From contig CAIKYB010000002.1 in NCBI GenBank assembly GCA_903831575.1, positions 1 to 64,000 on the forward strand: DNA of 64,000 nucleotides. Reading direction: 5' to 3'. How positions within the stretch are numbered: the stretch's first letter is position 1; every line of letters begins with the position of its first letter. The notes beneath the pieces were generated by a model. It had not been told where the DNA came from. It ran no database searches and saw only the letters and a list, made by a program, of their open reading frames with translations. Below, piece after piece: positions 24,260-40,868 of the stretch. This DNA comes from an uncultured Bacteroidota bacterium (lineage in GTDB: Bacteria > Bacteroidota > Bacteroidia > Chitinophagales > Chitinophagaceae). A program made the translations under genes and the position numbers.

Positions 24260-25029
24260 TGCAGGAAGAGTTAAAAATATTTTTAGATAAAAAGGTTGAT
24301 GCGTATAATCAGCCTTTTTTTATTGCGTCAGATCCAATTTGTGTTCCGCATTCATTTTCAAAAAAACAAGACATAGAAATTGCAGGATTTTTTGCTTCCA
24401 TTTTTGCATGGGGTAATCGAACCACCATAATCAACAAGTCGAAGGAATTGATGCAATTAATGCACAATGCACCTCACGACTACTGCTTGCACCATACTTC
24501 AAAAGATTTAAAACAACTATTGTCATTTAAACATCGAACCTTCAACACAACAGATTTATTGTACTTTGTCGAATTTTTAAAATACCATTATAAAAGCCAT
24601 GATACATTAGAAACGGCATTTGTACAATCGATGAAAAAGAAGGATGAAAATATAGAGAATGGACTTAATGGTTTCTATGATTATTTTTTCTCTTTACCGG
24701 ATGTACCTAAAAGGACAAGAAAACATATTGCGTCCCCAAATAAAAAATCATCTTGTAAGAAGTTAAATATGTATTTGAGGTGGATGGTTCGCAATGATAA
24801 AAAAGGAGTGGACTTTGGTCTTTGGAAAAACATTAAACCTTCACAATTAATTATCCCACTTGATTTACATGTTTTCCGCGTTGCAAAAAAATTTAATCTT
24901 ATTACCAGAAATCAATCGGACTGGCTTTCTGCCATAGAGCTCACAGAAATATTGAAGCACTTAGATCAAAAAGATCCAGTCAAATATGATTTTGCTTTAT
25001 TTTCTTTAGGTGTATTGGAAAAGTTTTAA
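24259..25029 (+). CDS. TIGR02757 (DUF2400) family protein
   Basis: This 256-residue protein of the TIGR02757 family is widespread in Bacteroidota but biochemically uncharacterised. Family features are the early SDPICVPHSF, EIAGFFASIFAWGNR, RTFNTTDLLYF, KKLNMYLRWMVR and the late LDLHVFRVAKKFNL. It has some resemblance to helix-hairpin-helix DNA glycosylases (RWMVR ... DLHV), a relation that would need structural comparison. The ATG overlaps the upstream stop by one base. Downstream lies the dead 5' end of a small gene, and a decayed copy of this gene's own 3' end lies at 39.7-39.86 kb. Confidence 0.88.
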   Translation: MQEELKIFLDKKVDAYNQPFFIASDPICVPHSFSKKQDIEIAGFFASIFAWGNRTTIINKSKELMQLMHNAPHDYCLHHTSKDLKQLLSFKHRTFNTTDLLYFVEFLKYHYKSHDTLETAFVQSMKKKDENIENGLNGFYDYFFSLPDVPKRTRKHIASPNKKSSCKKLNMYLRWMVRNDKKGVDFGLWKNIKPSQLIIPLDLHVFRVAKKFNLITRNQSDWLSAIELTEILKHLDQKDPVKYDFALFSLGVLEKF

Positions 25030-25034
25030 ATGGT

Positions 25035-25094
25035 ATGATGGACTCCACAGCAAACAACAATACAACATCATTAGAAAATCTTTTGTTTTATTAA
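25035..25094 (+). pseudogene. Truncated 5' relic of the 112-residue small gene
   Basis: This 19-codon relic begins MMDSTANNNTTSLENLLFY and then stops. It matches the start of the intact gene at 39863 (MMHSTENNNEKTSLEKVF) in protein and DNA, including the bases before the ATG. It directly follows the intact TIGR02757 gene, as the intact copy follows a dead TIGR02757 tail. It marks one edge of the 25.1-39.7 kb block. Confidence 0.75.
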
Positions 25095-25109
25095 AATCAT
25101 TATTTTTCA

Positions 25110-25271
25110 AATAACGCGGCTTCAATTGAATCTTTACAGATATATAACACCACAGGGAATCTTGTAAAATCAGTATTTAACAATAAGCGTTTTGGAATGG
25201 GTAAACACGTTGAAACAATAAACGCTGCTGAACTTTCAAATGGAAAATCACAAAAAAATAATCATCAGTAG
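25110..25271 (+). pseudogene. Relic of a T9SS type A C-terminal sorting domain
   Basis: This open stretch has no usable start of its own. It reads NNAASIESLQIYNTTGNLV, then KSVFNNKRFGMGKH and INAAELSNGK. This is the characteristic end of a type A sorting domain (IYNxxGxLV ... LSxGxY), but the final strand is replaced by SQKNNHQ and a stop. It is likely the 3' remnant of a secreted protein gene lost by deletion. It overlaps the convergent 410-residue gene by seven bases. Confidence 0.6.
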
Positions 25272-26497
25272 AAAGTAGTATCCTTTGATAATAAAATTCC
25301 TTCCTGAGGTCTTCCTAAAAGAATACTTCTCTCATCAATTAACGAACTTAATTCCGGTGAATTTAAACTATCAAGAATTTGATTTTTGAGATAGAAAGAA
25401 CGTAGCGTATTATCAGGTTTATGCCATTTAATTATTTTACATGCGCAACTTGCATTCTCTATATCATTAATTACTTCTTCAATTTCTCCGCCTTTTCCAA
25501 GCTTCGTATATACTTCCCTGATACCTATTATTTTATTTTTTTTGCCAATATCAAAATTCCAGGATGTTGATATTGCGGTAAGATTAGCATTGTTGTAATT
25601 TAAGTCTAATAAAGAATGTCTGGGAGATTCAGTAACGTTGTCTTTTTTTCTTATTTTAGAAAAAATAGATACAATGCCGGGAGATTCAAACTGCATATAA
25701 CCAACGTGGTCAAAACTTGCGCCATAACGGTTAAATGTAAAGTAACCATCTTTGTATTTTATACTTACAACATTTGATACCACTTTATGGAACCTGTTGG
25801 GATCAGAAATTCTTGCTTGCGGAGATCCTGTATAACATAACCAAACACCTTCCAAACTATCAATTTCCATTTGTGTGGGTTGATAAGGAAGAATATTCAT
25901 GTCGTTTTTCACCTCCGCCCAATTTTGTTTAGCTTCCTTGTAATTTACTAAAGTCCCAAGCCATAGTAAAAGCAACGCAACTAAAACCATCTTTAATAAA
26001 CTAGCTTTTTTAGTGAATTGTTTATTTATTACAGAAAGCTGTTTTTTTAATTCAATATTTTCCTCTTCAATAATAAAAATTTCATCATTTTTTTCTTGAC
26101 CAGATTGCTCAACCAAATTGATATCTGTAGGATTAATAGCAAATCGTTTGCGTCCTATCCCAAATAAATAAATATAACAGGCATCAACAAGAAATGGACG
26201 AGGATGTGAAACGATTCCATTTAATGCATCTTTAATTTGCCCGCCTGTAATGTCATATTTTCTATATGGATATTCTTTAGGATTCGGATTCGTGTCACCT
26301 GGATAGGCGCCTGTTCCTAATTCTTCAAAGCTATTAGGGAGCTCTTTGGTAATCTCACTTAACACTATGGCAAGAGATTCGTAATTTTTTCTATTGGTAT
26401 TTTGAATGATTTCTATACCAGTTTCTGATTTATACTTCTCCACTACTTGTTTTAGCAAGTAGACGATCTCTTCTTTACCTTTTTTTATTTTTTCCAT
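25265..26497 (-). CDS. Single-span membrane protein of unknown function, 410 residues
   Basis: The N-terminal ~130 residues are soluble and contain a conserved-looking block YDITGGQIKDALNGIV, then PRPFLVDACYIYLFGIGRKRF. A short coiled coil (about 138-162) precedes one membrane span at about 167-184 (LLKMVLVALLLLWLGTLV). The remaining ~225 residues have beta-rich segments (WLCYTGSPQARI, YFTFNRYGASFDHVGYM). With no signal peptide, the likely topology is N-terminus inside and C-terminal domain in the periplasm, which would suit a transmembrane signalling or stress device. I do not recognise the family. A 9-bp inverted repeat lies 29 bp upstream of the start. It is the only minus-strand gene in the accessory block. 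Confidence 0.7.
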   Translation of the reverse strand: MEKIKKGKEEIVYLLKQVVEKYKSETGIEIIQNTNRKNYESLAIVLSEITKELPNSFEELGTGAYPGDTNPNPKEYPYRKYDITGGQIKDALNGIVSHPRPFLVDACYIYLFGIGRKRFAINPTDINLVEQSGQEKNDEIFIIEEENIELKKQLSVINKQFTKKASLLKMVLVALLLLWLGTLVNYKEAKQNWAEVKNDMNILPYQPTQMEIDSLEGVWLCYTGSPQARISDPNRFHKVVSNVVSIKYKDGYFTFNRYGASFDHVGYMQFESPGIVSIFSKIRKKDNVTESPRHSLLDLNYNNANLTAISTSWNFDIGKKNKIIGIREVYTKLGKGGEIEEVINDIENASCACKIIKWHKPDNTLRSFYLKNQILDSLNSPELSSLIDERSILLGRPQEGILLSKDTTFY

Positions 26498-26525
26498 AAA
26501 AATAAGAATATCAATGCTTTATGAC

Positions 26526-26555
26526 GTTTCGGAAACTTTTTTATTCTTCCGAAAC
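26526..26555. promoter_or_regulatory. Inverted repeat upstream of the 410-residue membrane protein
   Basis: The arms gtttcggaa and ttccgaaac form a perfect 9-bp inverted repeat with a 12-bp spacer, 29 bp upstream of the minus-strand start. It could be an operator or a leader hairpin. The rest of the 375-bp divergent interval (26498-26872) is AT-rich, with repeated tttagta motifs and no gene. Confidence 0.4.
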
Positions 26556-26843
26556 CAGATAAATCATTTAGTAAAAATTTAGTACCCCCTAAATTCTTAT
26601 TTACAGTTCAATTAAATGAAATTTTGCTTAATACTTAAAAACTAGCCTTTCTATTAATTGCTTATATTACTACAAACTTATAAAATTTAACTTATAAAAC
26701 GATTGCTAAATAATCACTCTTTAAATACAAAAAACAGCTAATTTTTTTATTTATAACGCATGATTTATTTTTATGATCTTAAAAATAAATCTGCCTCCTC
26801 ATGTATCTAAATCGTCATGTTATAAATGGTGAGTGTTTAGTAT

Positions 26844-26851
26844 TAGTTTTG
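26844..26851 (+). promoter_or_regulatory. Candidate -7 element (TAgtTTTG) of the eight-gene operon
   Basis: An exact TAnnTTTG match lies 21 bp before the first start codon of the hydrolase / transporter / porin operon. No obvious -33 element is visible. Confidence 0.4.
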
Positions 26852-26872
26852 AAATAGTTTAATTAACATAAA

Positions 26873-27775
26873 ATGTTATATATGATGGGGTTATTTCAAA
26901 AAATAACAATGCTGTTGTCATCGATACTAATTTTTAATATCGGTTCTGCACAAATTAAGAGTGCAAGTTCAGGCAAACAACAATTTTATTTTGACAATGG
27001 AGGAAAATTAAAAAATCCGATGAAGGTTTTTTATTTCTGCCCCGCTGTAAATTCAGATAGCATGCCCATCATTATGATGCTTCATGGTGCTCATAGAGAT
27101 GCTTCTGCGTATATGGATGACGTCATTAATGCTGCAATTGTATTTGGCTGTAAAGTAATTGCACCTGAATTTGATAAAGAAGATTTTCCAGGATTAGAAA
27201 GTTACAATCTTGGAAATGTCTATGATAATAACAACAACGCATATAATAGTCCGGAAAAATGGAGCTTTTCAATTATTGAGCCGCTATTTGATTATGTAGT
27301 TAAAGAGACCAAAGCCAGTAATAAAGGATATTATTTGTATGGCCATTCAGGTGGTGCGCAGTTTGTTCACCGATTTTTAATGTTTGTAAATCAGCATAGA
27401 GTAATTAAAGCAGCCATTGCTAATTCGGGCTGGTATACGGCTACTGATAATAATATTGACTTCCCTTTTGGTTTAAAAAAATCTCCGATTTCAACTTCCA
27501 ATTTAGCATCCTTTTTTTCTACTAAACTTTTTGTATTGTTGGGAATGGATGATAACAAGCGGGAATCAAAAGATTTTAATGCAACTGCAGAAGCAGATAT
27601 GCAAGGAAGAAATAGATTTGAACGCGGAAAATATTTTTATAATCAGGCAAAAAATAAATCTGAGGAATTAAAAACACCATTTAATTGGACAGAAATATTT
27701 GTTCCCAATGTTGGTCATAGCAATGCAGGAATGTCAAAATTTGCATTTGCTTCTTTTTTTATGAACAGACAATAA
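26873..27775 (+). CDS. Secreted alpha/beta hydrolase (PHB depolymerase / LpqC-like)
   Basis: This 300-residue protein has a signal peptide ending NIGSAQ near residue 27. Alternative starts at 26882 and 26885 would shorten it slightly. The fold is alpha/beta hydrolase: [11 protein letters not shown] (oxyanion region), nucleophile Ser159 in YGHSGGAQ, probable acid Asp226/Asp227 in LLGMDDNK, and His282 in [10 protein letters not shown]. Proteins of this shape cleave ester bonds in extracellular polymers or small esters. It lies 9 bp before the dicarboxylate symporter gene and heads the operon, so it probably releases the substrate that the porins and symporter import. No T9SS tail is seen, so it is probably periplasmic. 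Substrate unknown. Confidence 0.82.
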
Positions 27776-27784
27776 ATTATTAAG

Positions 27785-29086
27785 ATGAAATATTTACGTC
27801 AATTATATATTCAAGTTATCTTAGGTGTTGTTCTTGGTATTGTGGTTGGATACTTTTTTCCTTCATTGAGCGGAATGGGTAAAATGATTGGAGAATGTTA
27901 TATCAATTTGATCAAAATGCTCATCGCACCTTTGATTTTCTTTACCATAACTGCAGGTATTGCAGGAACGGGAAATCTTAAAAAAGCGGGTAGAATTGGC
28001 GGTAAGGCACTTATTTATTTCGAAATCATTTCAACGATTGCTTTATTGTTAGGTATTGTAGTTGCTAATTTCGTAAAGCCAGGAATGGGGGTTCCACAGG
28101 ATGCAGCAGATGCAGCAAACGCCATTCAAAAAGTGTCTAAAGAAATTAACTGGGGCGATTTTTTCCTACACATGATTCCTTCTAATGTGGTGGACTCTTT
28201 TGCTAAGGGCGATATTTTACAAGTGCTTGTGTTTTCTGTTTTATTCGGAATAGCATTAAGCAAACTTGGTCCAACAGGAAAATCGATTACTCATAATTTT
28301 GAAAAGATTAATAAAGTATTGTTTTCAATTCTTGGTATGATAACCGTATTAAGTCCTATTGCTGCATTTGGCGGCATGTTGTCTACCGTAGGAGGTAAAA
28401 ATGGATTTGCAATGTTGTATGTGTTGGGTAAATTTATGATGACCTTTTATTTAACTGCGGCATTTTTCATTTTTGTTGTCTTAGGACTCGTGATGAGTTA
28501 TTACAGATTAAATCTTTTCAAATTATTAAGATACATTAAAGAAGAAATTTTAATTGTTTTTGGTTCAAGTAGTAGTGAGTCGGTATTGCCAAATATCATG
28601 AGCAAACTTGAGCATGCGGGTTGTTCACCTACAGTTGTAGGTTTAGTAATTCCTACAGGATATAGTTTTAATTTGGACGGAACAACCATCTATCTTGGTA
28701 TGTCGGTGTTGTTTATTTCTCAGGCAATGGGACTAGATCTAAGTATTATGCAGCAACTTACTGTCGTTGGAATATTATTATTAACAAGTAAAGGAGCTGG
28801 CGGGATTACTGGAAGCGGTTTGATTATTTTAAAGTCTAGTTTAGATTCCATGAAATTCATTCCAGAAGCGGCACAAGCACAATATTTACCATTACTAATT
28901 GGCATCGATCGTTTAATGAGCTTAGGAAGAGCATTAACTAATGTTATTGGCAACACTGTAGCTTGTGTAGTCATTGCAAAAAATGAAAACTTAATTGATT
29001 CAAAAAAGTATAAAGAAGTGGTAGAAAACAATAAAATTGTGGTGTTGGCTAATCCACCATCTAGCTTCGAATTTGAACAAGAATAA
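27785..29086 (+). CDS. Dicarboxylate/amino acid:cation symporter (DAACS family)
   Basis: This 433-residue inner-membrane symporter is of the DctA/GltP fold. The N-terminus has FPSLSGMGKMIGECYINLIKMLIAPLIFFTI. Helical hairpin 1 reads FGSSSSESVLPNIM, the serine-rich re-entrant loop. TM7 has LNLDGTTIYLG, corresponding to the NMDGT sodium-site motif. Helical hairpin 2 reads TSKGAGGITGSGLIIL. The TSKGA form is typical of C4-dicarboxylate carriers, although glutamate/aspartate carriers are not excluded. Transport is driven by sodium or protons. Its position between the secreted hydrolase and two porins suggests uptake of an anionic product. Confidence 0.93.
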   Translation: MKYLRQLYIQVILGVVLGIVVGYFFPSLSGMGKMIGECYINLIKMLIAPLIFFTITAGIAGTGNLKKAGRIGGKALIYFEIISTIALLLGIVVANFVKPGMGVPQDAADAANAIQKVSKEINWGDFFLHMIPSNVVDSFAKGDILQVLVFSVLFGIALSKLGPTGKSITHNFEKINKVLFSILGMITVLSPIAAFGGMLSTVGGKNGFAMLYVLGKFMMTFYLTAAFFIFVVLGLVMSYYRLNLFKLLRYIKEEILIVFGSSSSESVLPNIMSKLEHAGCSPTVVGLVIPTGYSFNLDGTTIYLGMSVLFISQAMGLDLSIMQQLTVVGILLLTSKGAGGITGSGLIILKSSLDSMKFIPEAAQAQYLPLLIGIDRLMSLGRALTNVIGNTVACVVIAKNENLIDSKKYKEVVENNKIVVLANPPSSFEFEQE

Positions 29087-29113
29087 TTTTTATTATCTAC
29101 TTAATATAGAAAT

Positions 29114-30469
29114 ATGCAAATGAAAAAAATCACGCTTTTACTTTTAGTGTTTGTATTATTATTTAATACTGTAAAAGCGCAGCTTGATGAACGTTACGAA
29201 GAAACATCTTCAGAAGAATCAGTTGCACCGGCAGGGGCTGTAAGTGTGTTGAAACTAAAAAAGAGCTATATTTTAGGAGACGGAATAACACTAAAATCTT
29301 CTATTGGAAGAATTAACCTAACCCAAAGTTTACAAACATCATTTTTATTAAATACTCCCAATTCGAATCTTACAAAAATGAGTGCTGCGTTTGATATAAA
29401 CAGAGCTCGTTTAAGCTTTGCTGCAAATCTGTTTGATAAAAGATTCAACATTTATGGAAGATTGAATTTTCCTGCAAATTATCAAAGTGCAACTACTGGA
29501 ATAAGATCTTTTAATACGGTACTACAAGAAGCGTTTGTTGAATATAAACCAAATATTACACATGCCATTAATTTTGGACTGAGAGCAGATTATATTGATT
29601 CGAGAGAAACACGAATAGAAGGCGAAAACTTAGGATTCATCAACAGAAGTGCCGTATCTGGTGCTTTTGATGCCATTTTTGATTTTGGTTTGAGGTATAA
29701 AGGAAATTACAAGTTGGGCGGAAAACATTTATTGAAACCCTATTTATCTATTACCACGGGAGACAGCAGATCTGCGTTGCAAAAAAATTACGGCGGATTT
29801 AAATATGGTATTCGTTTAGATTATTTACCGTTTGATAAATTCTCAAAAGGTGGCGAAGGCTATATGGATGATTTGGCAAGAGAACAAAAACCCAAGTTGG
29901 TAATAGGGTTCATTTATAGTTATAATAATGGAATATCCTCTGCCATTGGAACTAACGGTGGAAGATACCTGTATAGAGACAGCTCAGAAAAAATACTGTT
30001 ACCAGATTATTCAAAAGCTGGCGCTGATTTCTTATTTAAATACAAAGGGTTTTATGCAATGGGAAGTTATTTTTTAACAACTGTTAAAGTTCCAGATGGA
30101 GTTACAGAAAGGTTTTCATTGACTCAAGACAAATATATTAAATACGCCTCATCATTGACTTCATCACAAATACAAGATTCTATAAAATCTAAGCTTAACA
30201 TAGGTAATGGTTTCAGTATTCAGGGCGGTTATACCTTCCCTTCAAACTGGTCTGTAGCATGTCGTTATGCATCTTTAAATGAAAATGGCATTTCTAATAA
30301 TTTTGCAGACTATAACAAAAGTTACACACTGGTATTTACGAAATATTTATCTGGGAATAATCTTAAAATACAAACAGAGTTTGGTTTTGATGAATTTAAA
30401 TCAAGTTTGAAGACAGCCACACAAAAAGGTAATTATTATTCCCAAATAATGGTAACAGTTCAATTATAA
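29114..30469 (+). CDS. Outer-membrane porin, OprO/OprP-like (paralog 1)
   Basis: This 451-residue outer-membrane beta-barrel has a signal peptide ending TVKAQ (a start at codon 3 is also possible). The LKKSYILGDGITLKSSIGRI opening, RARLSFAANLFDKRFNIYGRL, and FGLRADYIDSRETR are typical of phosphate-selective porin O/P-type proteins of Bacteroidota. The C-terminus QIMVTVQL ends in a beta strand suited to the BAM machinery. It shares PDYSKAGADFLFKYKGF and the preceding RLDYLPF block with the next gene, so the two are tandem paralogs. OprO/P relatives favour anions, in line with a dicarboxylate symporter next door. Anion preference here is inferred. Confidence 0.85.
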   Translation: MQMKKITLLLLVFVLLFNTVKAQLDERYEETSSEESVAPAGAVSVLKLKKSYILGDGITLKSSIGRINLTQSLQTSFLLNTPNSNLTKMSAAFDINRARLSFAANLFDKRFNIYGRLNFPANYQSATTGIRSFNTVLQEAFVEYKPNITHAINFGLRADYIDSRETRIEGENLGFINRSAVSGAFDAIFDFGLRYKGNYKLGGKHLLKPYLSITTGDSRSALQKNYGGFKYGIRLDYLPFDKFSKGGEGYMDDLAREQKPKLVIGFIYSYNNGISSAIGTNGGRYLYRDSSEKILLPDYSKAGADFLFKYKGFYAMGSYFLTTVKVPDGVTERFSLTQDKYIKYASSLTSSQIQDSIKSKLNIGNGFSIQGGYTFPSNWSVACRYASLNENGISNNFADYNKSYTLVFTKYLSGNNLKIQTEFGFDEFKSSLKTATQKGNYYSQIMVTVQL

Positions 30470-30483
30470 ATTCTAAAATTATC

Positions 30484-31770
30484 ATGATGACAAGAAAAGT
30501 AGTTTTTTATTGTTGTGTTTTATTGATGTCTCTGACAAACGCAACTGCACAAACTGAAAAAAGTAAACTCATGCAAACGGATTCTTCATTAATCTATATT
30601 AATGGGGAAGGAACATTTTTGCATTTAGGCAAAGCTGAAGGAACAAAAATGAATTTGTTAACCACTGTTCAATCGGGGTTTCAATTTTCACAATTTGATT
30701 CTGTTTCCAAAACGAACACAAACAGGTTGTCTTTGAATATGGTAAGGATTGCATTTACGGCATCCGGATTTAAAGATAAAATGTCGATGGGTATTCTTAC
30801 AGACCTCACTGGCGTTTCTCCAATCTTGGAAGGATGGGTTGGATTCTCTGTTTATAAAAAATCAGCGAAAATAATTTTAGGACAAAAGCAAACGAATACC
30901 AACAACCGTTTGGCATTAGCAGACGAACGTTATGCTCAATACATGGGACAAACACTTGCAGGAAAATCAAATGATGGCGTTGTTTATGGTGGATTGATGC
31001 AAAACTTTGTTGGTGCTACCAGAGAAGGTGGATTGTTTATAGAATCAAACTTCAGTGTAAAAAAGTGCAGAATATATCCTTCAGTTTCTATTACTACAGG
31101 AGAAGGTCAAAACTTTTTTTCTTCACAACCTAATTTAGGATTTAAATATGGCGGACGACTTGACATTATGCCTTTAGGGGACTTTATAAAAAATAATGCT
31201 TTCATTGCGCAAGATATTTACAGAGAAGCAAAACCAAAATTTGCGTTGGGTGTTGCTGCCAGCATCAATAAAAAAGCATCTAGTGTAATTGGAACTGATC
31301 ATCAAACGATAACAGGTATTTATAACAAAGATGGAGCAGAAGATTATCCAGACTACAGAAAATTAGCAGCTGACTTCATTTTCAAATACAAAGGATTTGC
31401 CTTAGTAGGAGAATATATGAGCGGAACAGTTTCAGGTAAAGAATTATATGCAACTGTTGTTTCGTATAACAAACTCACAGAAGAAGTGGCAAGCCAATAC
31501 TACAATTTAGGCAAAGCATTTAATTTGCAAACATCCTACGTGTTTAAGAATGGATGGGCAATAGATGGAAGATACAGTGCTGTTACTCCAGAGTTTGATA
31601 TAGCATCTTCATTGGTTCAACAACAGACCTGGATATCTGGAGGCGTCAATAAATTTATAAAAAATAATGCTGTAAAAATCGGACTAAATTTTACTCAGAT
31701 TAAAACGACATCCAGTATCATCACCACAACCAATAAAATCGGAAATTTAGCCATTCAAATATTAATGTAA
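30484..31770 (+). CDS. Outer-membrane porin, OprO/OprP-like (paralog 2)
   Basis: This 428-residue porin-like barrel has a signal peptide ending NATAQ. It matches paralog 1 in the region GGRLDIMPLGDF, EAKPKFALGVAASINKKAS and DYRKLAADFIFKYKGF, followed by alternating strands to the end LAIQILM. It differs from paralog 1 in the early half (VGFSVYKKSAKIILGQKQTNTNNRL), which suggests different pore properties or binding partners. It lies 14 bp after paralog 1 and 14 bp before the lamin-tail lipoprotein gene, so all are co-transcribed. Ion specificity is not determinable. Confidence 0.82.
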   Translation: MMTRKVVFYCCVLLMSLTNATAQTEKSKLMQTDSSLIYINGEGTFLHLGKAEGTKMNLLTTVQSGFQFSQFDSVSKTNTNRLSLNMVRIAFTASGFKDKMSMGILTDLTGVSPILEGWVGFSVYKKSAKIILGQKQTNTNNRLALADERYAQYMGQTLAGKSNDGVVYGGLMQNFVGATREGGLFIESNFSVKKCRIYPSVSITTGEGQNFFSSQPNLGFKYGGRLDIMPLGDFIKNNAFIAQDIYREAKPKFALGVAASINKKASSVIGTDHQTITGIYNKDGAEDYPDYRKLAADFIFKYKGFALVGEYMSGTVSGKELYATVVSYNKLTEEVASQYYNLGKAFNLQTSYVFKNGWAIDGRYSAVTPEFDIASSLVQQQTWISGGVNKFIKNNAVKIGLNFTQIKTTSSIITTTNKIGNLAIQILM

Positions 31771-31784
31771 AAAATATAGTCATT

Positions 31785-33530
31785 ATGAAATCAAGATTTA
31801 TTTATTCAATAAGCTTAATACTTTTAATAGTTAGCTGTACATCTAAAATAGATTTTATACCTGTTTCTTCTCAGTCTTCAGATTTATTAATATCGGAAGT
31901 ATCAACAGCTATAAACACAGATGTAAATGCTGGGTCAAAAAGGAATCATTACATAGAGCTATATAATGGAACGGGCGCAAGCATAGATTTGTCTGATTAT
32001 GCTATCGGTTATCAAGCTGTTTCAGATAGCATAACAGTATCACCCTGGAACTTTACAGACCCTGCCAACTATTTTATATTAACTACAACAATTCAAACTG
32101 GTAAATGCTATGTAATTGCTTCTCCAACAGCAGACAATAGCATTATCAGTAAAAGTGATATTACATGGGGAACAACAAGCACAAGTGCTTCGGATGCATC
32201 CAAACCTTTACAGTTAAGTGGAAACAGTGCAATAGCGTTATTAAAAAAAGATCCTAACGGAAGTCATGTATTGAATGGTTCAAATTATAAAATTATTGAT
32301 GTTTTTGGAAGTCCTCAAGTAATCAGAGAATCTTTTTATGGTAGCAGCTCAAGAAATAATTATGCATGGGGTATTGCAGGAGAGTTGGATACACGCAACA
32401 GAACTTTTAAAAGAAAAGGCACAATCACCTCTCCAAATATAGATTGGAATTCAAGCAGAGGGACAACATCAACAAATTCAGAATGGTTGGTTTCAGCAGA
32501 TAGAGGTTGGGATTACGGTAACCTTTCATTTCCAACAATAATACCTCCAACCATACCAACAATTACAACAGGCGTATTAACACAAATTACCGATACTTCA
32601 GCAACCGGTGGAGGAAATGTTATTAATGATGGCGGACAAGCAGTAACGGAAAGGGGTATATGCTGGAGCACTTCTCCGAATCCAGATATTACAAGTCCAA
32701 CAAAAACTTCTGATGGAGCTGGAACAGGGACTTTTATTAGTAATATTTCTGGACTCTTATCAAACACGACCTATTATGTAAGAGCATATGCCACCAATAT
32801 AATTGGTACCGCTTATGGAACAGAAGTACAGTTTTCAACCTCAATTGTAAATGCTGACTTATTAATTTCAGAAATTTCTACAGCAATTAATACAGATTCT
32901 ATACTTGTAGCAGGAGCTGTTAGAGCAAGAAATCATTATGTCGAATTATATAATGGAACAAACTCAAGTATTAATTTATCTGATTATGCTATTGGCTATC
33001 AGGCGGTTAGTGATACTACAACATTATCAGCTTGGGACTTTACCAATGCTGCCAACTATTTAATTCTTAGTGGGAATATCAATACAAGATCTTGTTATGT
33101 GATATTATCAAATGGCGCAGACCAAGTGAATATACCACATCAAACTACATGGGGGACGTCGAGTATTTTAACAGCCAATGCTTCCAAACCCTTACAATTA
33201 AGTGGAAATAGTGCTATTGCTTTATTGAAAAAAAGTACCGCGGGAACGCATACTTTAGGCGGGAATACTTATGCTATAATTGATGTTTTTGGAAGTCCAC
33301 TTGTTCCAAGATCAACTGCCACTGGCGCTTCTAGTGTACGTAATAATTTTATTTGGACAACAGGCGGTGTTACTGATACCAGAAATAATACGTTTAAAAG
33401 AAAGTCGACAGTTATTAATCCAACTACCGACTGGAATTTAAGTAAAGGGACAGATTCAAATAATTCGCAATGGTTAATAAGTAGCTACAGACTTTGGGAT
33501 TATTCTAATGTAGGACTTCCAACTCCGTAA
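31785..33530 (+). CDS. Lipoprotein with two lamin-tail domains
   Basis: This 581-residue lipoprotein has a lipobox ending LLIVSC (lipidated Cys near 18). Lamin-tail domain 1 is at about 31-245 (DLLISEVSTAINTD, HYIELYNGTGASIDLSDYAI, DVFGSPQ). A fibronectin-like segment is at about 255-350 (RGICWSTSPNPDI, YYVRAYATN). Domain 2 is at about 356-581 and ends VGLPTP. Domains 1 and 2 are clearly duplicated, also in DNA (the cttaccaaa-type tracts around LQLSGNSAIALLKK). A third copy is in the gene at 36.1 kb. Such domains occur in secreted nucleases and surface proteins and are thought to be ligand- or protein-binding. It may hold a hydrolase or porin at the outer membrane; that is inference. Confidence 0.8.
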   Translation: MKSRFIYSISLILLIVSCTSKIDFIPVSSQSSDLLISEVSTAINTDVNAGSKRNHYIELYNGTGASIDLSDYAIGYQAVSDSITVSPWNFTDPANYFILTTTIQTGKCYVIASPTADNSIISKSDITWGTTSTSASDASKPLQLSGNSAIALLKKDPNGSHVLNGSNYKIIDVFGSPQVIRESFYGSSSRNNYAWGIAGELDTRNRTFKRKGTITSPNIDWNSSRGTTSTNSEWLVSADRGWDYGNLSFPTIIPPTIPTITTGVLTQITDTSATGGGNVINDGGQAVTERGICWSTSPNPDITSPTKTSDGAGTGTFISNISGLLSNTTYYVRAYATNIIGTAYGTEVQFSTSIVNADLLISEISTAINTDSILVAGAVRARNHYVELYNGTNSSINLSDYAIGYQAVSDTTTLSAWDFTNAANYLILSGNINTRSCYVILSNGADQVNIPHQTTWGTSSILTANASKPLQLSGNSAIALLKKSTAGTHTLGGNTYAIIDVFGSPLVPRSTATGASSVRNNFIWTTGGVTDTRNNTFKRKSTVINPTTDWNLSKGTDSNNSQWLISSYRLWDYSNVGLPTP

Positions 33531-33645
33531 TTAGAAATTTTAAAATTAAGTGCTATCTTTCATAGGTTTTCTGCATATTGATTCATACAAAATCATGTGT
33601 TAAATTAATAAGGAAATTGAAAGACTAGAAAAGTAAACAGGATTA

Positions 33646-36099
33646 ATGGATTTTAAGAATAATTTATATCGAAGTAAAATACTTGTATTGACTTTTTTAA
33701 CTCTCACCACATCTGTAGTGAAAGCGCAGCTATATATCAACAATTCAAAATTATTCATTGATTCCACCTCCATATTATTTGTAAAGCAACAAGATGTTGT
33801 GAGTAATTATAGTGTAGTAGGAAAAGGAACTTTATATCTTAATGGATCGGCATCACAGAACATTAATATGAATGGTAATACTATTCCTAATTTAAAAGTC
33901 GCTAATCCAGCAAATGGCAATATCGTATCTACTTGTCAGGTTGGAAATATAACGCTTGAACCCTCTACATTAGTCAATGTTAACAACCAGCTTTTAAAAA
34001 TCAGCAATTCAATTATAAATAATAGCGGTGCTATAGATGTGACTAATGGATCGCTTGAATTAAATGGAACATCAGCACAATCGATAGCGGGCAGCTTTTT
34101 TTTAAATAAATCTGTAAAGAACTTAAAATTGAGTAATAGTGATGGCATTTCTTTATCAGGAACAAATGATACTTTAAAAATCTCAGGAGTATTGGATTTT
34201 GGTGCAAGTAATGTAACACTTAGCACTAATGGCAATTTAACCATTGCTTCTACTGCTTCAAATACTGCTTGTGTCGCAGACATGACTTCGAATGGTTCTT
34301 ATAGTGGGAATAAAATTCTAGGAAACACAACTATTGAAAGATATATACCTAATCATACCAAGGCCTGGCAATTACTAGCTGTTCCTACATCCGGACAAAC
34401 AATTCGTCAGGCTTGGCAGGAGAATGCATCTACTCCAAATGAAAATTTACATGCTGGTTATGGAACACAACTTACTAGTAATATTTCTGGTGCTACAAGT
34501 TTAGGATTTGATGCTTACACTTCTGGAGGTCCAAGCATCAAATCATACAATGCTACAAATTCGACATGGGATGGCATAGCAAGCACTAACAATAATATAG
34601 CTAACGTAAAAGGATACATGGTTTTTGTAAGAGGAGATAGAAGTATTACGGGAATAGGCCAGAGTGCAACTGCAACAATTATGAGATCAACAGGTTCTTT
34701 GTATCAACAAGTAGGAAATGCACCAGCAATAATTAATGTAGTGAGTAACAAATTTGAATGTGTGTCCAATCCATACGCCTCTGCAATTGATTTTTCAAAA
34801 ATAACGAGAGCTGGAGGTGTGCAAAATTTATTTTATGTCTGGGATCCTAAATTAACAACAGGACCAAATTCGGCATATGGATATGGAGGATACCAGACAT
34901 TTACTGCAAATGGCAATGGCACTTATCACATCACTCCTGCAGGAGGAAGTTTTCTAACAAATGATATTGTTGGAAATATTCAATCAGGTTCAGCTTTTTT
35001 TATAAGTGCAAGCGGAAGTAATGGAACTCTTGAATTTGCCGAAAATAATAAAGTTGTATCAAGCGCTTTGGTAACCAGACCTCCAATTGGGATGTCAGAA
35101 AGATTGGAAATAAAACTATCATCATTTGATACTACTTCATCTGTATTGTTAGATGGTATTATGTTTGATTTTGATTCCACGTACTCCAACAACATAGATA
35201 TGTTAGATGCAGTAAAAATTTATTCATCCGAAGAAAATATAGCCATTCAAACAGGAAATAAAACATTGGTTGTTGAAAGAAGAAACGAACTTAAAGCTGG
35301 CGATACCTTATTCTTTAATCTTAATCGATTGAAACAAAAAAGCTACCAGTTTGATATTTTTCCTTCCTATATTAATAGTATAGGTTTGGAAGGAATTTTA
35401 GTTGATAAATATTTACATGCCAATACGATTGTGGATTTAATTACTCCTTCAACTATTATTTTCTCAGTTACAACAGATACCCAATCTTTTGCATCAGATC
35501 GGTTTTATATGATTTTTAAACAATCAATGGTCGTGCCTGTAAAAATTATTAATATTGATGCCTTAAGAAATGAAGATAAAACAGCAACCGTAAATTGGGA
35601 AACAGCTAATGAAATCAATCTTAATCATTATGTGGTTGAACGTAGCGAGGATGCTGTAGCTTTCATTGAAGTAGGACAGCAGCAACCAATAAGTAATAAT
35701 GGGTTAGGTTTTCAATATTATTTTAATGATTTAAATGCAAAGACATCTGTAAATTATTACCGCATAAAGGCCCTCAGTAATGATGGACAAATACAATATA
35801 GCAAGATTGTAAAAGTTGATCCTATAAACAGCGGAGGTTATTATTTAATCTATCCAAATCCAATAGCGGATCATTCAATTAATATCAATTTTAATAATAG
35901 TTTATTAGGATCATATGAAATTACTGTATGGAATACATTGGGTAAATTATTGCTTCAAAAAAAATATATTTTATCATTATCAAATGAAACAATAAAAATC
36001 GGTTTGCCGGCGAGCGTTACTTCGGGCAACTATTTATTAAAAATCATACAACCTGATGGGAGAATTTCATCAGAAAAAATTCTAGTCATTAAAAAATAA
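33646..36099 (+). CDS. T9SS type A sorting domain surface protein
   Basis: This 817-residue exported protein starts with a signal peptide (about 1-28, ending SVVKAQ). Beta-helix-like sequence follows, with repeating NGSLELNG, LNLS-type and NGNLTIAS units up to about 210. A globular middle (YIPNHTKAWQLLAVPTSGQ, GYMVFVRGDRSI, FECVSNPYASAIDF) and a late domain (ATVNWETANEINLNHYVVERSED, YYRIKAL) come next. The last ~80 residues form the type A C-terminal sorting domain with YPNP at 736-739, and then YEITVWNTLGKLL and GNYLLKI. It is exported to the cell surface by T9SS. The 115-bp gap before it is the largest in the operon. Binding role and ligand unknown. Confidence 0.88.
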   Translation: MDFKNNLYRSKILVLTFLTLTTSVVKAQLYINNSKLFIDSTSILFVKQQDVVSNYSVVGKGTLYLNGSASQNINMNGNTIPNLKVANPANGNIVSTCQVGNITLEPSTLVNVNNQLLKISNSIINNSGAIDVTNGSLELNGTSAQSIAGSFFLNKSVKNLKLSNSDGISLSGTNDTLKISGVLDFGASNVTLSTNGNLTIASTASNTACVADMTSNGSYSGNKILGNTTIERYIPNHTKAWQLLAVPTSGQTIRQAWQENASTPNENLHAGYGTQLTSNISGATSLGFDAYTSGGPSIKSYNATNSTWDGIASTNNNIANVKGYMVFVRGDRSITGIGQSATATIMRSTGSLYQQVGNAPAIINVVSNKFECVSNPYASAIDFSKITRAGGVQNLFYVWDPKLTTGPNSAYGYGGYQTFTANGNGTYHITPAGGSFLTNDIVGNIQSGSAFFISASGSNGTLEFAENNKVVSSALVTRPPIGMSERLEIKLSSFDTTSSVLLDGIMFDFDSTYSNNIDMLDAVKIYSSEENIAIQTGNKTLVVERRNELKAGDTLFFNLNRLKQKSYQFDIFPSYINSIGLEGILVDKYLHANTIVDLITPSTIIFSVTTDTQSFASDRFYMIFKQSMVVPVKIINIDALRNEDKTATVNWETANEINLNHYVVERSEDAVAFIEVGQQQPISNNGLGFQYYFNDLNAKTSVNYYRIKALSNDGQIQYSKIVKVDPINSGGYYLIYPNPIADHSININFNNSLLGSYEITVWNTLGKLLLQKKYILSLSNETIKIGLPASVTSGNYLLKIIQPDGRISSEKILVIKK

Positions 36100-36121
36100 A
36101 GTATCATCATAATCTGAATTA

Positions 36122-37093
36122 ATGAATAACATCAATGCTAATAAAATGAAAGTTCAACTGTTACTTATTTTGTTTGTTTTTGCTACAAGCATTTCATACG
36201 CACAAAATATTGGAATTGGGACAATTACTCCAGATGCAAGCGCCGCCTTGGAAGTAAAAGATAGCGCAAAAGGATTTCTTCCACCTCGTATGACTTATGC
36301 ACAAAGAAATGCCATTTCAAATCCTGCAGCTGGATTAATGATTTATTGCACTAACTGTGGCAATAAAGGCGAGTGGCAGGGATACAATGGTTCTAGTTGG
36401 ATGAGTTTAACTAGCACATCTGCCACCGACACGTCTTCAAACTTATTGATTTCTGAAATCAGTACGGCAACCTTCACGGATTCAATACCTAATGGTACAA
36501 GAGTCCGAAATCACTATGTTGAATTATATAATCCTACCGGATCGAATATTAACTTAAGCGATTATGCAATCGGCTATCAGGCAGTTGCTGATTCTGGGAC
36601 CTTAGCTTCTTGGAGCTTTTTAGATCCTGCAAATTATTTAATCTTAAGTGGGAATGTAGTTGCAAAATATTGTTACATCATTTTATCTAATGGTGCTGAT
36701 AAAAGCAAATTACCCTATAATGTAATTTGGGGAACAGCTAGTACTTTAAATGCAAATGCATCTATTCCTTTACAATTAAGTGGAAACAGTGCTATAGCAC
36801 TACTTAAAAAAGATGCAGCCGGCACTCATGTATTAAGTGGAAATAGTTATAAAATTATTGATGTATTTGGAAGTCCACTCGTCTCAAGAGTAAACGCTAC
36901 TTATTATGGCGGAGTCTCAAGCGCAAGAAATAATATAAATTGGACAATAGCAGGGCAAAATGATACGCGAAACAGAACAATTAAAAGAAAATCATCTATC
37001 TCAACCCCAACATCAACTTGGGATCCAGAACAATGGAGTTTGTCACTTGATAGAGTGTGGGATTATACTAATATTGGTCAACCGACACCTTAA
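36122..37093 (+). CDS. Secreted lamin-tail protein with adhesin-like N-terminus
   Basis: This 323-residue exported protein has a signal peptide ending SISYAQ (a start at codon 9 would also fit). It is followed by NIGIGTITPDASAALEVKDS, GFLPPRMTYAQRNAI and LMIYCTNCGNKGEWQGYNG, a module frequent at the start of Bacteroidota surface and tail-fibre-like proteins. A single lamin-tail domain (about 107-323) closely follows the two copies in the lipoprotein gene. It contains LLISEISTATFTDS, HYVELYNPTGSNINLSDYAI, LQLSGNSAIALLKKD and DVFGSPL and ends IGQPTP. No T9SS tail is visible, so how it reaches the surface is unclear. Confidence 0.8.
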   Translation: MNNINANKMKVQLLLILFVFATSISYAQNIGIGTITPDASAALEVKDSAKGFLPPRMTYAQRNAISNPAAGLMIYCTNCGNKGEWQGYNGSSWMSLTSTSATDTSSNLLISEISTATFTDSIPNGTRVRNHYVELYNPTGSNINLSDYAIGYQAVADSGTLASWSFLDPANYLILSGNVVAKYCYIILSNGADKSKLPYNVIWGTASTLNANASIPLQLSGNSAIALLKKDAAGTHVLSGNSYKIIDVFGSPLVSRVNATYYGGVSSARNNINWTIAGQNDTRNRTIKRKSSISTPTSTWDPEQWSLSLDRVWDYTNIGQPTP

Positions 37094-37102
37094 TTTATAA
37101 GT

Positions 37103-39673
37103 ATAAAAAATACAAAAACATATCAACATCTTCTACTAATAATCATTTGCATTTTTTTTGCTGCTGTAAAATCCTTTGCCCAAACAACCTATACCGTTAC
37201 TGTAAATCAGGGTTATTCTAATGCAACAAGTTTTCATCAAGGCGATTCTGTTTTTATCTGGAGCAGAGCTTCATCAACAAATGAAACATTCGATTATTGG
37301 TCTGGAGATTCTACTTTAATATGTGGCAATAATGAATGGCGTTCTTACTTTGTAATGCCTGCCAGTAATCTACAGTTTACAGCAAATTTTAAAACGGTTA
37401 ATTCCACCTTAGTATTTGAGAAGATAAGGGGAAAAATTAATTTAAAAGATGTGTATTATGTCTTTCCTGCAAATCACAAGGGTATTGTTTATCTCTTTCA
37501 TGGTTCTAACGGATCTACTTCTTCCTGGACAGGCAACCAGGAAAATAAAAACCTTATTAAAGATTTAATAGCAGAAGGTTTTGCTGTAATCATTACTGAA
37601 TCTGAAGAGGAAACTTTAAATACTGATACTAACGGTGATGGTTCATTGAGATGGGATGCCAGTACATTAGACAGTAATCTTAATGTTGATTTCGCAAATC
37701 TAAAAGCAATTACCGATACTTTTTATAATCGTGGCTATACAAACAGAGGAATGAATAGATACACATTAGGACAAAGTAATGGAGGAAGTTTTTCAATTTC
37801 TTTCGGGTACTATTTTAACCTAAAAGCTTCAATTGCTTTTTGTTCATCTGGCGGAGCAACAGGGGGTGCTGTAAATATTACCACCACACCAACCATGTTT
37901 TGCTTAGCAGGTGCCGATAATAACAGTACAATGGGTTTATCAGGGAATGCTAATGCAATAACCAATTCTCAATCTATCAGTTCAAGAGGGGTGTGTAGTA
38001 AATATCATACTAACAACCCTTCTCCATTATATGATCAAAGGTTCTCGCGCAATTCAATTATCAGTGCCATAGTATCAACTCAAATTTTTAATGAGATAAA
38101 GAATAATAATTTTTTAAATACTAAAAATTATTTCATTGGGTATATTCAAGCATTATGGAATGCGGTAGCGGCAACACCACAAAACTTCCCAGTGATATCG
38201 GCTTTATCAACTTCACAAAAAAATGTTGTTGAAGAACAAATCAGATGTGTTACCGCAGATCACCAGTTTTATAGTGAATATAATAAATCCGCCATTCGAT
38301 TTTTTAATTATCAATGTCAATCTCAAATACATTCAACAACCCTAACACAGTGCGATAGCTACAACTGGCCGTTAAATGGAATTTCCTATACATCAAGTGG
38401 AACCTATACTTCAATAACTGGTTGTAATATAGAAGTATTAAATCTCAGTATAAATTCGAGTACCCACAACAAAACAACTGCTACTGCTTGCGATAGTTAT
38501 ACTTGGTCCCGAAACGGGTCAACCTATTCAACAAGCGGTACTTATGTATATACCTATACAAATGGTTCAGGGTGTGCTTCAGCTGATAGCTTAAAACTAA
38601 CGATTAAACAAAAATCATCTAGCACAACAACTATATCAAATTGTGTGTCATACACTTGGAACGGCGTAACGTATTCGGCTAGTGGCTCTTATACAAAGAC
38701 GGGCTTAACGAATGTAGCCGGATGTGATTCAATAGCGTATTTGTCATTAACCATTAAACAAAAATCAACAAGCACCACCAATAAATCCAATTGTGTATCA
38801 TACACTTGGAATGGCGTAACGTATACTGCCAGTGGCTCATATACAAAGACGGGCTTGACAAATGCGGTTGGATGCGATTCAACAGCGTATCTATCCTTAA
38901 CGATTAAGCAAGCTACCACATCTACAAGTCCAGCAACAGTTGACGCTGTTAATTTGCCCTATATTTGGAATGGCGTAACCTATACATCAACCGGTGTTTA
39001 TACTGTTAAATTAGTTAATGCGGTTGGATGTGATAGCACAGCAATATTAAATTTAACTGTAAATCCCTATAATCAAAATACGATTTTAATTTTGAAACTT
39101 TTTCTTGAGGGGGTTTATATTAGCAATGGATTCATGAGAACTACTTTATATGATTTAGGGTTAAGCACTGTAAATGATGCTACTGATACCATATCGATTA
39201 ATCTATGGAAATCAAATCATTTGAGTAATAATTATCCCGACTATACTGTAAAAGCATTACTTCATAGTAATGGATCTGTATCATCAAGTTTTCCTCCTGC
39301 CACCTATGGCAATTCCTATTACATTGCAATAAAACATAAAAATTTTTTGGAAACTTGGACTGCATTACCTGTTACAATTGGCGCAACAAATAGGTATGAT
39401 TTTACCACTAATATAAATAAAGCGTTTTCTAATGGCATTAATTTACCCATGAAAAATATGGGGAATAATAAATTTGCTTTTTTAACCGGAGATTTAAATT
39501 TAGACGGAGGGGTAGATATTTTCGATATGCAGCCAATAGAAAATGATGCTTCTCAGTTTTATTTTGGCTATTATATTACTGATTGTACCGGCGATGGGGC
39601 AGTCGATATTTCCGATATGCAAATAGTTGAAAATAATTCTACTCAATTCTTGTTTTTTGCACGCCCGTATTAA
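37103..39673 (+). CDS. Secreted alpha/beta hydrolase with beta repeats and dockerin-like tail; ATA start
   Basis: The open frame starts right after the previous stop and encodes a full signal peptide (KNTKTYQHLLLIIICIFFAA then VKSFAQ) before any ATG. There is no ATG, GTG or TTG until 37355. The only sensible initiator is ATA at 37103, either a mutated start or a rare non-standard one. It gives 856 residues. An alpha/beta hydrolase domain follows: VYLFHGSNGSTSSW, nucleophile Ser225 in LGQSNGGS, the acid region CLAGADNN and His in VTADHQFYSE. Then come five WNG...SGxY...GCDS repeats (38335-39065). The end is a dockerin/EF-hand-like pair (GDLNLDGGVDIFDMQ and CTGDGAVDISDMQ). It closes the operon and looks like a surface esterase or depolymerase. 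Confidence 0.75.
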   Translation: MKNTKTYQHLLLIIICIFFAAVKSFAQTTYTVTVNQGYSNATSFHQGDSVFIWSRASSTNETFDYWSGDSTLICGNNEWRSYFVMPASNLQFTANFKTVNSTLVFEKIRGKINLKDVYYVFPANHKGIVYLFHGSNGSTSSWTGNQENKNLIKDLIAEGFAVIITESEEETLNTDTNGDGSLRWDASTLDSNLNVDFANLKAITDTFYNRGYTNRGMNRYTLGQSNGGSFSISFGYYFNLKASIAFCSSGGATGGAVNITTTPTMFCLAGADNNSTMGLSGNANAITNSQSISSRGVCSKYHTNNPSPLYDQRFSRNSIISAIVSTQIFNEIKNNNFLNTKNYFIGYIQALWNAVAATPQNFPVISALSTSQKNVVEEQIRCVTADHQFYSEYNKSAIRFFNYQCQSQIHSTTLTQCDSYNWPLNGISYTSSGTYTSITGCNIEVLNLSINSSTHNKTTATACDSYTWSRNGSTYSTSGTYVYTYTNGSGCASADSLKLTIKQKSSSTTTISNCVSYTWNGVTYSASGSYTKTGLTNVAGCDSIAYLSLTIKQKSTSTTNKSNCVSYTWNGVTYTASGSYTKTGLTNAVGCDSTAYLSLTIKQATTSTSPATVDAVNLPYIWNGVTYTSTGVYTVKLVNAVGCDSTAILNLTVNPYNQNTILILKLFLEGVYISNGFMRTTLYDLGLSTVNDATDTISINLWKSNHLSNNYPDYTVKALLHSNGSVSSSFPPATYGNSYYIAIKHKNFLETWTALPVTIGATNRYDFTTNINKAFSNGINLPMKNMGNNKFAFLTGDLNLDGGVDIFDMQPIENDASQFYFGYYITDCTGDGAVDISDMQIVENNSTQFLFFARPY
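38335..39065 (+). repeat. Five tandem beta repeats inside the hydrolase gene
   Basis: Five units of about 45-50 residues share the pattern CxSYxWNGxxYxxSGxY ... GCDSxxxLxLTI. Units 3 and 4 are nearly identical in DNA (38635-38760 and 38785-38905), indicating recent duplication. The truncated protein at the window start has the same repeat type. Confidence 0.8.
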
Positions 39674-39701
39674 TTTATGAATAAAGCTTACCATATCGAT
39701 T

Positions 39702-39857
39702 AGTAAAATTATTCCACAAATAAAATCTGTTAAGCGTTTTAATAGAATGCTTTATACTAATCCCCACCTTGCTGTATTTACCAAAAACATAAAGAACCTT
39801 GAATTAGAAGCTTCAACTAAATATAATTTTGTTTTACGTCTGTTGGAAAAGCCTTAA
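39702..39857 (+). pseudogene. 3' relic of a second TIGR02757 gene
   Basis: The open stretch translates to SKIIPQIKSVKRFNRMLYTN and onward to KNIKNLELEASTKYNFVLRL then LEKP-stop. This aligns with the C-terminus of the intact TIGR02757 protein (IIPLDLHVFRVAKKFNL ... ILKHLDQKDPVKYDFALFSL-GVLEKF-stop). DNA identity continues across the stop codon into the next gene's start. It lacks the front three quarters of the gene. Together with the relics at 25.0-25.3 kb it delimits the accessory block. Confidence 0.7.
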
Positions 39858-39862
39858 ATTGT

Positions 39863-40201
39863 ATGATGCATTCCACGGAAAACAATAATGAAAAAACATC
39901 TCTTGAAAAAGTTTTTTCAATAACCCATTTGGATCTTCTTTCTGATGCAAAATTGATAAGTGAATTGGCCGCGGAAATCAATAATCTTATTCTGATTAAT
40001 TTTGAAAGACTGGTTCAATTGCTTTACAGAATAGATGTAAGCGAGGTCAAACTAAAAACCTTATTGAAGGAAAATCCTAACGAAGATGCTGGTAGAATAA
40101 TCGCTTCCTTGATTATTGAAAGACAATTTCAAAAATTGAAATTAAAATCAGAAATGAAAAATACAGATGAAAAATCAGCATGTGATGAAGAAAAGTGGTA
40201 A
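39863..40201 (+). CDS. Small hypothetical protein, 112 residues
   Basis: This small, probably helical cytoplasmic protein has the central segment LILINFERLVQLLYRIDVSE and the acidic/basic run KLKTLLKENPNEDAGRIIA. No signal peptide or catalytic motif is visible. The length and form resemble a conserved but uncharacterised small protein of Chitinophagaceae that I cannot name. It directly follows the TIGR02757 relic, and a truncated copy of its 5' end follows the intact TIGR02757 gene at 25.0 kb, so the two genes were once neighbours. It ends 10 bp from the convergent hydroxylase gene. Confidence 0.68.
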   Translation: MMHSTENNNEKTSLEKVFSITHLDLLSDAKLISELAAEINNLILINFERLVQLLYRIDVSEVKLKTLLKENPNEDAGRIIASLIIERQFQKLKLKSEMKNTDEKSACDEEKW

Positions 40202-40211
40202 AAAATAAATA

Positions 40212-40868
40212 CTAATATAGTAGCTTATTCACTTCCACTTTATCTTCTTTTTCTTTTTTTAAATCGTACATCGTTCCAAAAACAAGATCCCATAAAGTAC
40301 TGCTTACGCCAAATCCTTTGTCAGCATGTTTGTAATGATGAAGATGATGGTTTCTCCATAATGGTTTCATCCATTTAAATGGTGGATTCCAGGCATGGAT
40401 GGCATAATGTATAGATCCATAAAGCAAGTATCCTAACATAAATCCAGGAAAAAAGACAAACGCATTTTTTTCAATAATAAAATAAAATAAAAACAAAAAA
40501 AATGACGCTAGAATTAAACTTGGTAATGCTGGCATAAACAAACGTTCTTTATCTCTTGGGTATTCATGATGGTTTCCGTGTAACAGATAAATTAATTTCT
40601 TTGTTCTTTCAGAACTCGATTCATAATGAAAGGCAAATCGATGTAAAATATATTCTGTAAAACTCCAGAATAGTATTCCACTTATAAACAAGATCAATGT
40701 CCTTGTTGCGCCAAATCCTTCTACTTTTACTGTATAGTAGGAGAATAGTATTATTATTGGTAAATATAAGCTCCAAATTACAAGAGGATGAGTTTTGGTG
40801 AGATATTCGAGATATTGGTTTCTAAAAAGTTGTGCCTGACCTTTGTTGTAAATTTTTTCAAAATACAT
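40212..40868 (-). CDS. Fatty acid hydroxylase / sterol desaturase family membrane protein
   Basis: This 218-residue integral membrane di-iron enzyme has about four membrane segments. The histidine boxes are visible: HRFAFH (76-81), HGNHH (97-101), His154/His158 in SIHYAIHAW, and HHLHH (174-178). This set matches the fatty acid hydroxylase superfamily. Relatives 2-hydroxylate fatty acids of sphingolipids or modify carotenoids. Sphingolipids occur in Bacteroidota, so lipid hydroxylation is plausible but not proven. The gene stands alone on the minus strand and is divergent from the FAH-family gene, with about 80 bp between. Confidence 0.9.
   Translation of the reverse strand: MYFEKIYNKGQAQLFRNQYLEYLTKTHPLVIWSLYLPIIILFSYYTVKVEGFGATRTLILFISGILFWSFTEYILHRFAFHYESSSERTKKLIYLLHGNHHEYPRDKERLFMPALPSLILASFFLFLFYFIIEKNAFVFFPGFMLGYLLYGSIHYAIHAWNPPFKWMKPLWRNHHLHHYKHADKGFGVSSTLWDLVFGTMYDLKKEKEDKVEVNKLLY

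Follow-up and report, generated by a model that had tools for sequence, protein, structure and literature searches.

A 14.6-kb cassette of accessory genes (25.1–39.7 kb) appears to have been inserted into the junction between a TIGR02757 gene and the small gene downstream of it, with duplication of about 110–147 bp of that junction, after the lineage of this genome had split from that of its relative G056. We give this reading, which is based on comparison of sequences, a probability of roughly 0.6. The junction is duplicated at the ends of the block and is empty in relatives, and relatives carry the cassette at other places. Features at the block ends are listed below, with positions counted in the window (the whole 64-kb stretch of DNA that was analysed).

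24259–25029, forward strand: intact TIGR02757 (DUF2400) gene (Pfam DUF2400, 2.5e-86; NCBIfam TIGR02757, 8.9e-69)
24941–25087, forward strand: left copy of the duplicated junction (strict alignment with 39778–39918)
~25035–25094, forward strand: relic of the small-gene start, 19 codons and then a stop (sequence and translation)
25088–25260, forward strand: relic of a T9SS sorting tail or decayed remainder of the small gene (sub-threshold Pfam match; DNA match)
39774–39857, forward strand: relic of the TIGR02757 3' end (C-terminal HMM and DNA match)
39778–39918, forward strand: right copy of the duplicated junction (strict alignment with 24941–25087)
39863–40201, forward strand: intact small gene, 112 amino acids, with no named Pfam or NCBIfam family and with relatives in 78 of 98 genomes

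The initial annotation described an intact TIGR02757 gene followed by a 19-codon relic of the small gene on the left, and a decayed TIGR02757 3' end (39702–39857) followed by an intact small gene on the right. Both intact genes and the 19-codon relic were recovered as described, and the decayed 3' end holds from position 39774 onwards, the remaining part (39702–39770) being no better than chance. A C-terminal HMM made from 58 TIGR02757 proteins of the same genus matches the right end at 39774–39836 only, with 7.0 bits, which places this segment second in the region behind the real gene and third among 1953 scored sequences including shuffles. The score of the whole right-hand relic peptide is equalled in 36 of 2000 shuffles, while the peptide upstream of 39774 is random-like (1280 of 2000). 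Promoter-like and terminator-like sites around the small gene are not above shuffles, and a limited literature search found no paper with TIGR02757.

Alignment under strict gap costs reveals a direct repeat that joins both block ends (24941–25087 and 39778–39918) with a score of 244, compared with a maximum of 116 among 500 shuffles. Its ungapped core (25000–25071 and 39828–39899) spans 72 nucleotides with 76% identity, and at either end the repeat coincides exactly with the stop of TIGR02757 and the start of the small gene, as the initial annotation had proposed. When the 500-bp ends are aligned with each other, the score is 538, against a maximum of 433 and a mean of 327 for 1000 dinucleotide shuffles; the best of 1960 random pairs of 500-bp segments from the window reaches 527 and lies inside a repeated region of lamin-tail genes. 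A BLAST search of this genome with the junction gave no second match, although the same search also missed the known right copy.

The earlier estimate of an imperfect direct repeat of about 200–240 bp is thus correct as to the repeat but too long. The data support a duplicated stretch of 110–147 bp, because the match on the TIGR02757 side beyond the core is weak (equalled in 29 of 1000 shuffles at the DNA level) and the relic peptide upstream is random-like.

That the ends are unrelated by duplication, and resemble each other by chance or through an assembly artefact, is barely credible. A short, imperfect repeat whose outer parts do not exceed shuffles speaks for it, as do 2 of 2895 random pairs of stretches from the window that exceed 244 at strict gap costs, both of them within the repeated lamin-tail genes. 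However, the observed scores were reached by none of the 1000 and none of the 500 shuffles, the match sits exactly on the same stop and start at both ends, an assembler cannot confuse copies that are 76% alike, and the pair adjoins in relatives. For the repeat core, chance resemblance is refuted.

The stretch immediately downstream of the left copy can be read in two ways. One frame of 25095–25260 matches Por_Secre_tail with a library-wide E-value of 0.0036, which does not reach the gathering score. The DNA of 25088–25257 also matches the rest of the small gene with a score of 185, reached by none of 2000 shuffles, and at soft and middle gap costs this match tops 1565 forward and 1577 reverse windows; at strict gap costs it is equalled by 22 of the 1565 forward windows. 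None of the best-listed matches of an HMM of the small gene lies in 25088–25260, and the small genes of five relatives gave no convincing match there, the best being reached by 50 of 500 shuffles. We tentatively favour a T9SS tail over a decayed small gene, even though the T9SS relic of the initial annotation, with its sub-threshold domain match and a rival DNA match, is not well supported. The gene beside the cassette edge in G056 was considered as the source of such a relic and found no support (score reached by 269 of 2000 shuffles).

The identity of this stretch bears on an alternative that the initial annotation had itself offered, in which the gene pair was duplicated in tandem, the block arrived between the copies and the surplus parts were lost. 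The same gene remnants would be expected, and a true match of 25088–25257 to the small gene would mean that more of this gene had once been duplicated. This course of events needs more steps, at least three in all; no relic of TIGR02757 is detectable upstream of 39774, and no tandem pair came to notice in relatives examined for other purposes. We regard it as distinctly improbable.

The state of the junction in relatives supports insertion. The gene pair was examined in 92 other genomes of the same genus (58 + 34), of which 81 have a usable TIGR02757 locus and 77 a measurable gap between TIGR02757 and the small gene. This gap has a median of 15 bp and is at most 100 bp in 57 of the 77 genomes and at most 300 bp in 71; the six larger gaps reach no more than 2562 bp, so that none of the 77 holds a gap comparable to the block. 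Several genomes have a zero or negative gap, and the pair is therefore normally tightly spaced. The initial annotation had named relatives in which TIGR02757 is directly followed by the small gene as support for insertion, and this is the order observed; the outcomes that it had set against a duplication, an alignment no better than shuffled sequence or the same whole arrangement in relatives, did not appear.

Close relatives conform to this pattern, with gaps of 27 bp in G056, -1 bp in G026 and 2 bp in G127. G056 is the sister of this genome in the TIGR02757 tree (support 97/92), and named relatives have TIGR02757 identities of at most 68%. Sixteen genes of the window lying between 16.8 and 48.3 kb are collinear in G026, with the block missing between them. 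In G056, gene order is kept from 20.5 to 43.6 kb, where the contig ends, minus a fatty-acid-hydroxylase gene at 40212. The empty junction in G056, G026 and G127 leads us to reject simple vertical descent of the block at its site.

Some other junctions in the genus deserve mention in their own right. The larger gaps are filled by unrelated sequences, among them small foreign-looking genes in G037 (L093 8288–8689), a 133-amino-acid ORF that we take to encode a GxxExxY-like protein, and in G031 (L095 9201–9662), an IS200-type transposase (Y1_Tnp, 1.8e-24). In G016, G051 and G045 (L083–L086), a TIGR02757 about 50% like that of the window lies beside a small gene 57–59% like that of the window. These three are candidates for an exchange in which a foreign relative has taken the place of one gene of the pair; by eye, no hidden relic of the native TIGR02757 was seen beside the divergent one. 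In G023 (L090, L091), TIGR02757 is split over two contig ends at about codon 170, and these ends carry repeated motifs resembling those at the ends of insertion elements.

We infer the direction of the event (a gain at this site, not a loss in relatives) from comparison of genomes, and infer its timing and route as well. Among 14 sequences compared, the left copy is the nearest to the right copy, which is decayed: it scores 301, and none of the 13 relatives exceeds 190. For the left copy, which still codes, the scores with G056 (283) and G026 (279) are higher than that with the right copy (244). By eye, both junction copies have a small-gene start in common that is absent from G056. Because the right copy is nearest to the left and shares with it a start that G056 lacks, the duplication would be later than the split from G056.

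In the reading that we prefer, the cassette would have entered the junction in the lineage of this genome, duplicating some 110–147 bp of the target. The left copy would have retained the whole TIGR02757 gene and the right copy the whole small gene with its start, and the surplus halves of both copies would have decayed afterwards. A target duplication of this length would thus leave neither gene broken. Without the block and one of the copies, the gene order would be the common one. Counting against this reading, the two copies have lost their ends and reach only about 76% identity in the core, the duplication length and route are not directly readable, and the arrangement occurs in one genome, with no second genome showing it.

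The block itself contains the following genes.

25265–26497, reverse strand: left-edge cassette gene, 410 amino acids, without family (no Pfam or NCBIfam match; orthologs in G056, 80%, and G127, 64%)
26873–27775, forward strand: secreted-type hydrolase, poly(aspartic acid) hydrolase-1-like (PDB 9o7u, 1.4e-57; 6ve6, 3.9e-52)
27785–29086, forward strand: dicarboxylate/aspartate symporter of the SDF family (Pfam SDF, 2.7e-104; PDB aspartate transporter, 8.9e-74)
29114–30469, forward strand: first paralog of a porin-like pair (sub-threshold DUF6705 only; about 31% like the gene at 30484)
30484–31770, forward strand: second paralog of the porin-like pair, used as cassette marker (present in 4 of 93 genomes of the genus)
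31785–33530, forward strand: protein with two lamin-tail (LTD) domains (Pfam LTD, 4.2e-17, two stretches)
33646–36099, forward strand: surface protein with a T9SS tail (Por_Secre_tail, 3.3e-8)
36122–37093, forward strand: LTD-like protein (LTD, 1.4e-7, just under the cut-off)
37355–39673, forward strand: right-edge gene (sub-threshold Dockerin_1; G127 ortholog 70% identical over 539 amino acids)

By their look, we take the paralogs at 29114 and 30484 to be outer-membrane porins. The right-edge gene may encode a hydrolase-like N-terminus, repeats and a dockerin-like C-terminus, and no relative was found among solved structures. Its frame is open from about 37109 and includes a signal-peptide-like stretch without ATG, GTG or TTG; the frame of the G127 ortholog is likewise open upstream. 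The three lamin-tail units in the genes at 31785–33530 and 36122–37093 are mutual DNA repeats, and the gene at 36122 is 70% like the second half of that at 31785 over 300 nucleotides. A foreign base composition of the block was considered and rejected, as its GC content (33.5%) is that of the window (33.6%).

Searches with the second porin-like gene and with the hydrolase, each across 93 genomes of the genus, found both in the same four. Contig C21 of G056 carries orthologs of eight block genes, their order and orientation preserved, with a T9SS-tail protein gene on one side and a DUF47/phosphate-transporter pair on the other. Contig C9 of G127 has seven orthologs, including that of the right-edge gene; their neighbours there are a small cytochrome-like ORF and the gene for a seryl-tRNA synthetase. 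In G026, parts of the cassette lie at the ends of contigs C40 and C163; the genes before the C40 piece presumably form a pyrimidine-catabolism operon, and the C163 piece adjoins a tRNA-Gln gene (L128 377–448). The neighbours of the cassette therefore differ in all four carriers, and in G056 the junction is empty while the cassette lies on another contig. The cassette is rare and is kept together, at a different place each time. A search for the gene at 25265 in 59 genomes, a sample that leaves out G056 and G127, found it in this genome (G000) only.

In the TIGR02757 tree the carriers are not one clade, and G127 groups with five genomes that lack the block (support 99/95), two of which are less than 80% complete. 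The cassette may spread between species, or it may be inherited, moved and often lost. Protein identity to G056 is 66–94% for seven block genes and 82–94% for five flanking genes, and two further flanking genes have 53–56%. Fourfold sites are more often alike in the block (438 of 913) than in the flanks (170 of 441; p 0.001). The excess is due to the symporter and the first porin-like gene (173 of 300; p 3e-7), whereas the remaining block (265 of 613) does not differ from the flanks (p 0.13). Some of the block may accordingly have been exchanged once the lineage had parted from G056. We also looked in this genome for a former donor site like that of G056 and rejected it: a DUF47/phosphate-transporter pair occurs on C26 without the other G056 neighbours. 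As a separate observation, G028 and G058 (L132, L133) have a symporter about 60% like that of the cassette a few kb upstream of TIGR02757 on the other strand, at a locus without the rest of the cassette.

The cassettes of the other carriers also inform on the route of insertion. No flanking repeat surrounds the G056 cassette (score 84, reached by 251 of 500 shuffles), so movement of the cassette does not generally leave a long target duplication. Junction copies were sought beside the cassette in G056, G026 and G127, and the stretches L127–L130 and L192 scored like shuffles (60 each), although the left copy used as a DNA query found the true junctions of relatives at once. The incoming DNA therefore need not have carried a junction.

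The lack of junction copies there weighs against a single-crossover (Campbell-type) integration, in which a circle holding the cassette and a short junction piece from a near relative would recombine at the junction. Such an event gives the same order of full gene, truncated copy, block, truncated copy and full gene, and it requires only housekeeping recombination. Yet neither tblastn nor DNA comparison placed a junction piece beside the cassette in the stretches of the three other carriers, and homology of about 150 bp is short for integration by single crossover. We consider this route unlikely, if less so than a tandem duplication.

A decayed integrative element that used the TIGR02757 3' end as attachment site and has lost its site-specific recombinase is a highly improbable source. 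Integration at gene 3' ends with the gene kept whole is common for integrative elements, and one piece of the G026 cassette lies beside a tRNA-Gln gene. Against this, no integrase, transposase or IS family was found among the block proteins scanned, which agrees with the initial annotation; no tRNA was found in the window or in L127, L129, L130 and L192, and the G056 cassette has no repeat around it. Of the features by which integrative elements are recognised, a recombinase gene is absent among the block proteins scanned, and a common attachment site or flanking repeat is not seen, given the different neighbours in all four carriers and the lack of a repeat in G056.

We next turn to the putative role of the cassette. 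Among solved structures, two poly(aspartic acid) hydrolase-1 entries (1.4e-57 and 3.9e-52) rank ahead of a putative PHB depolymerase (7.9e-32) as relatives of the hydrolase at 26873. Residues 34–288 of this protein (about 255) align with PDB 9o7u and 6ve6, and the serine-hydrolase motif is aligned (GHSGG versus GHSAGG), its serine presumably being the nucleophile. In NCBIfam, the hydrolase matches only a PHA-depolymerase model, far under the cut-off (32.3 of 150 bits). The closest solved structure to the symporter at 27785 is an aspartate transporter (8.9e-74), and its first NCBIfam models are those of DctA, just under the cut-off (500 of 513 bits). The likeness of the hydrolase and the symporter, together with two porin-like genes and several secreted proteins, suggests a role in cutting a polyaspartate-like polymer outside the cell and taking up what is released, as judged from predicted proteins. 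We tentatively propose, as a possible reading with less than even odds, a polyaspartate-utilisation cassette that has come to lie at a different place in each of four species, moving without a recombinase of its own and, on one occasion or more, by insertion with long target duplication outside restriction-modification genes.

PahZ1 of Pedobacter sp. KP-2 acts on thermally made polyaspartate by cleaving the bonds that link beta-Asp units, according to the relevant passages of PMC4456602, the only paper in which a limited literature search found PahZ1. The hydrolase at 26873 resembles PahZ1 in that about 255 of its residues align with two PDB entries so named, a likeness known here from sequence. 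It differs in its setting, since the predicted hydrolase has a symporter gene, a porin-like pair and genes for surface proteins as neighbours.

The manner of insertion also has precedents. 'Insertion with long target duplication' was described in Helicobacter pylori by Nobusato et al. 2000, and the passages of PMC1643837 and PMC3031569 that cite this work tie it to restriction-modification genes. The block shares with that class, as outlined there, a long repeat of the host target around the insert, a single-copy empty site in relatives and the lack of a recombinase (among the block proteins scanned), and its repeat is long compared with IS target duplications. Unlike the H. pylori case as given in those passages, the insert is a catabolic-type cassette of 14.6 kb in a member of the Bacteroidota, with copies old enough to have decayed. 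A limited literature search found no paper joining 'long target duplication' with Bacteroidetes.

Oliveira et al. 2017 (PMC5635113) link integrase-free hotspots to recombination at flanking core genes, and our case is like these hotspots, in the passages that describe them, in that accessory genes lie between core genes and no mobile-element genes can be recognised. It is unlike them in that the double-recombination model set out there predicts no duplicated junction and in that the present cassette has moved between several places. Moved genes in Arabidopsis have flanking direct repeats, for which the pertinent part of PMC2869330 gives a circle-reinsertion model; there as here, the flanking repeats match the target site of a relative, although the Arabidopsis case is eukaryotic.

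This would be a known kind of insertion with an unusual cargo. It gives a legible example of how a multi-gene catabolic cassette can enter a tight gene pair with neither gene broken and without mobile-element genes. As the duplicated junction, an empty site and cassettes at other sites are all available, this route of integrase-free gene gain becomes testable. In addition, the cassette hints at a gene set for a polyaspartate-like polymer in nature; how such a polymer is degraded has mostly been learnt from a synthetic substrate.
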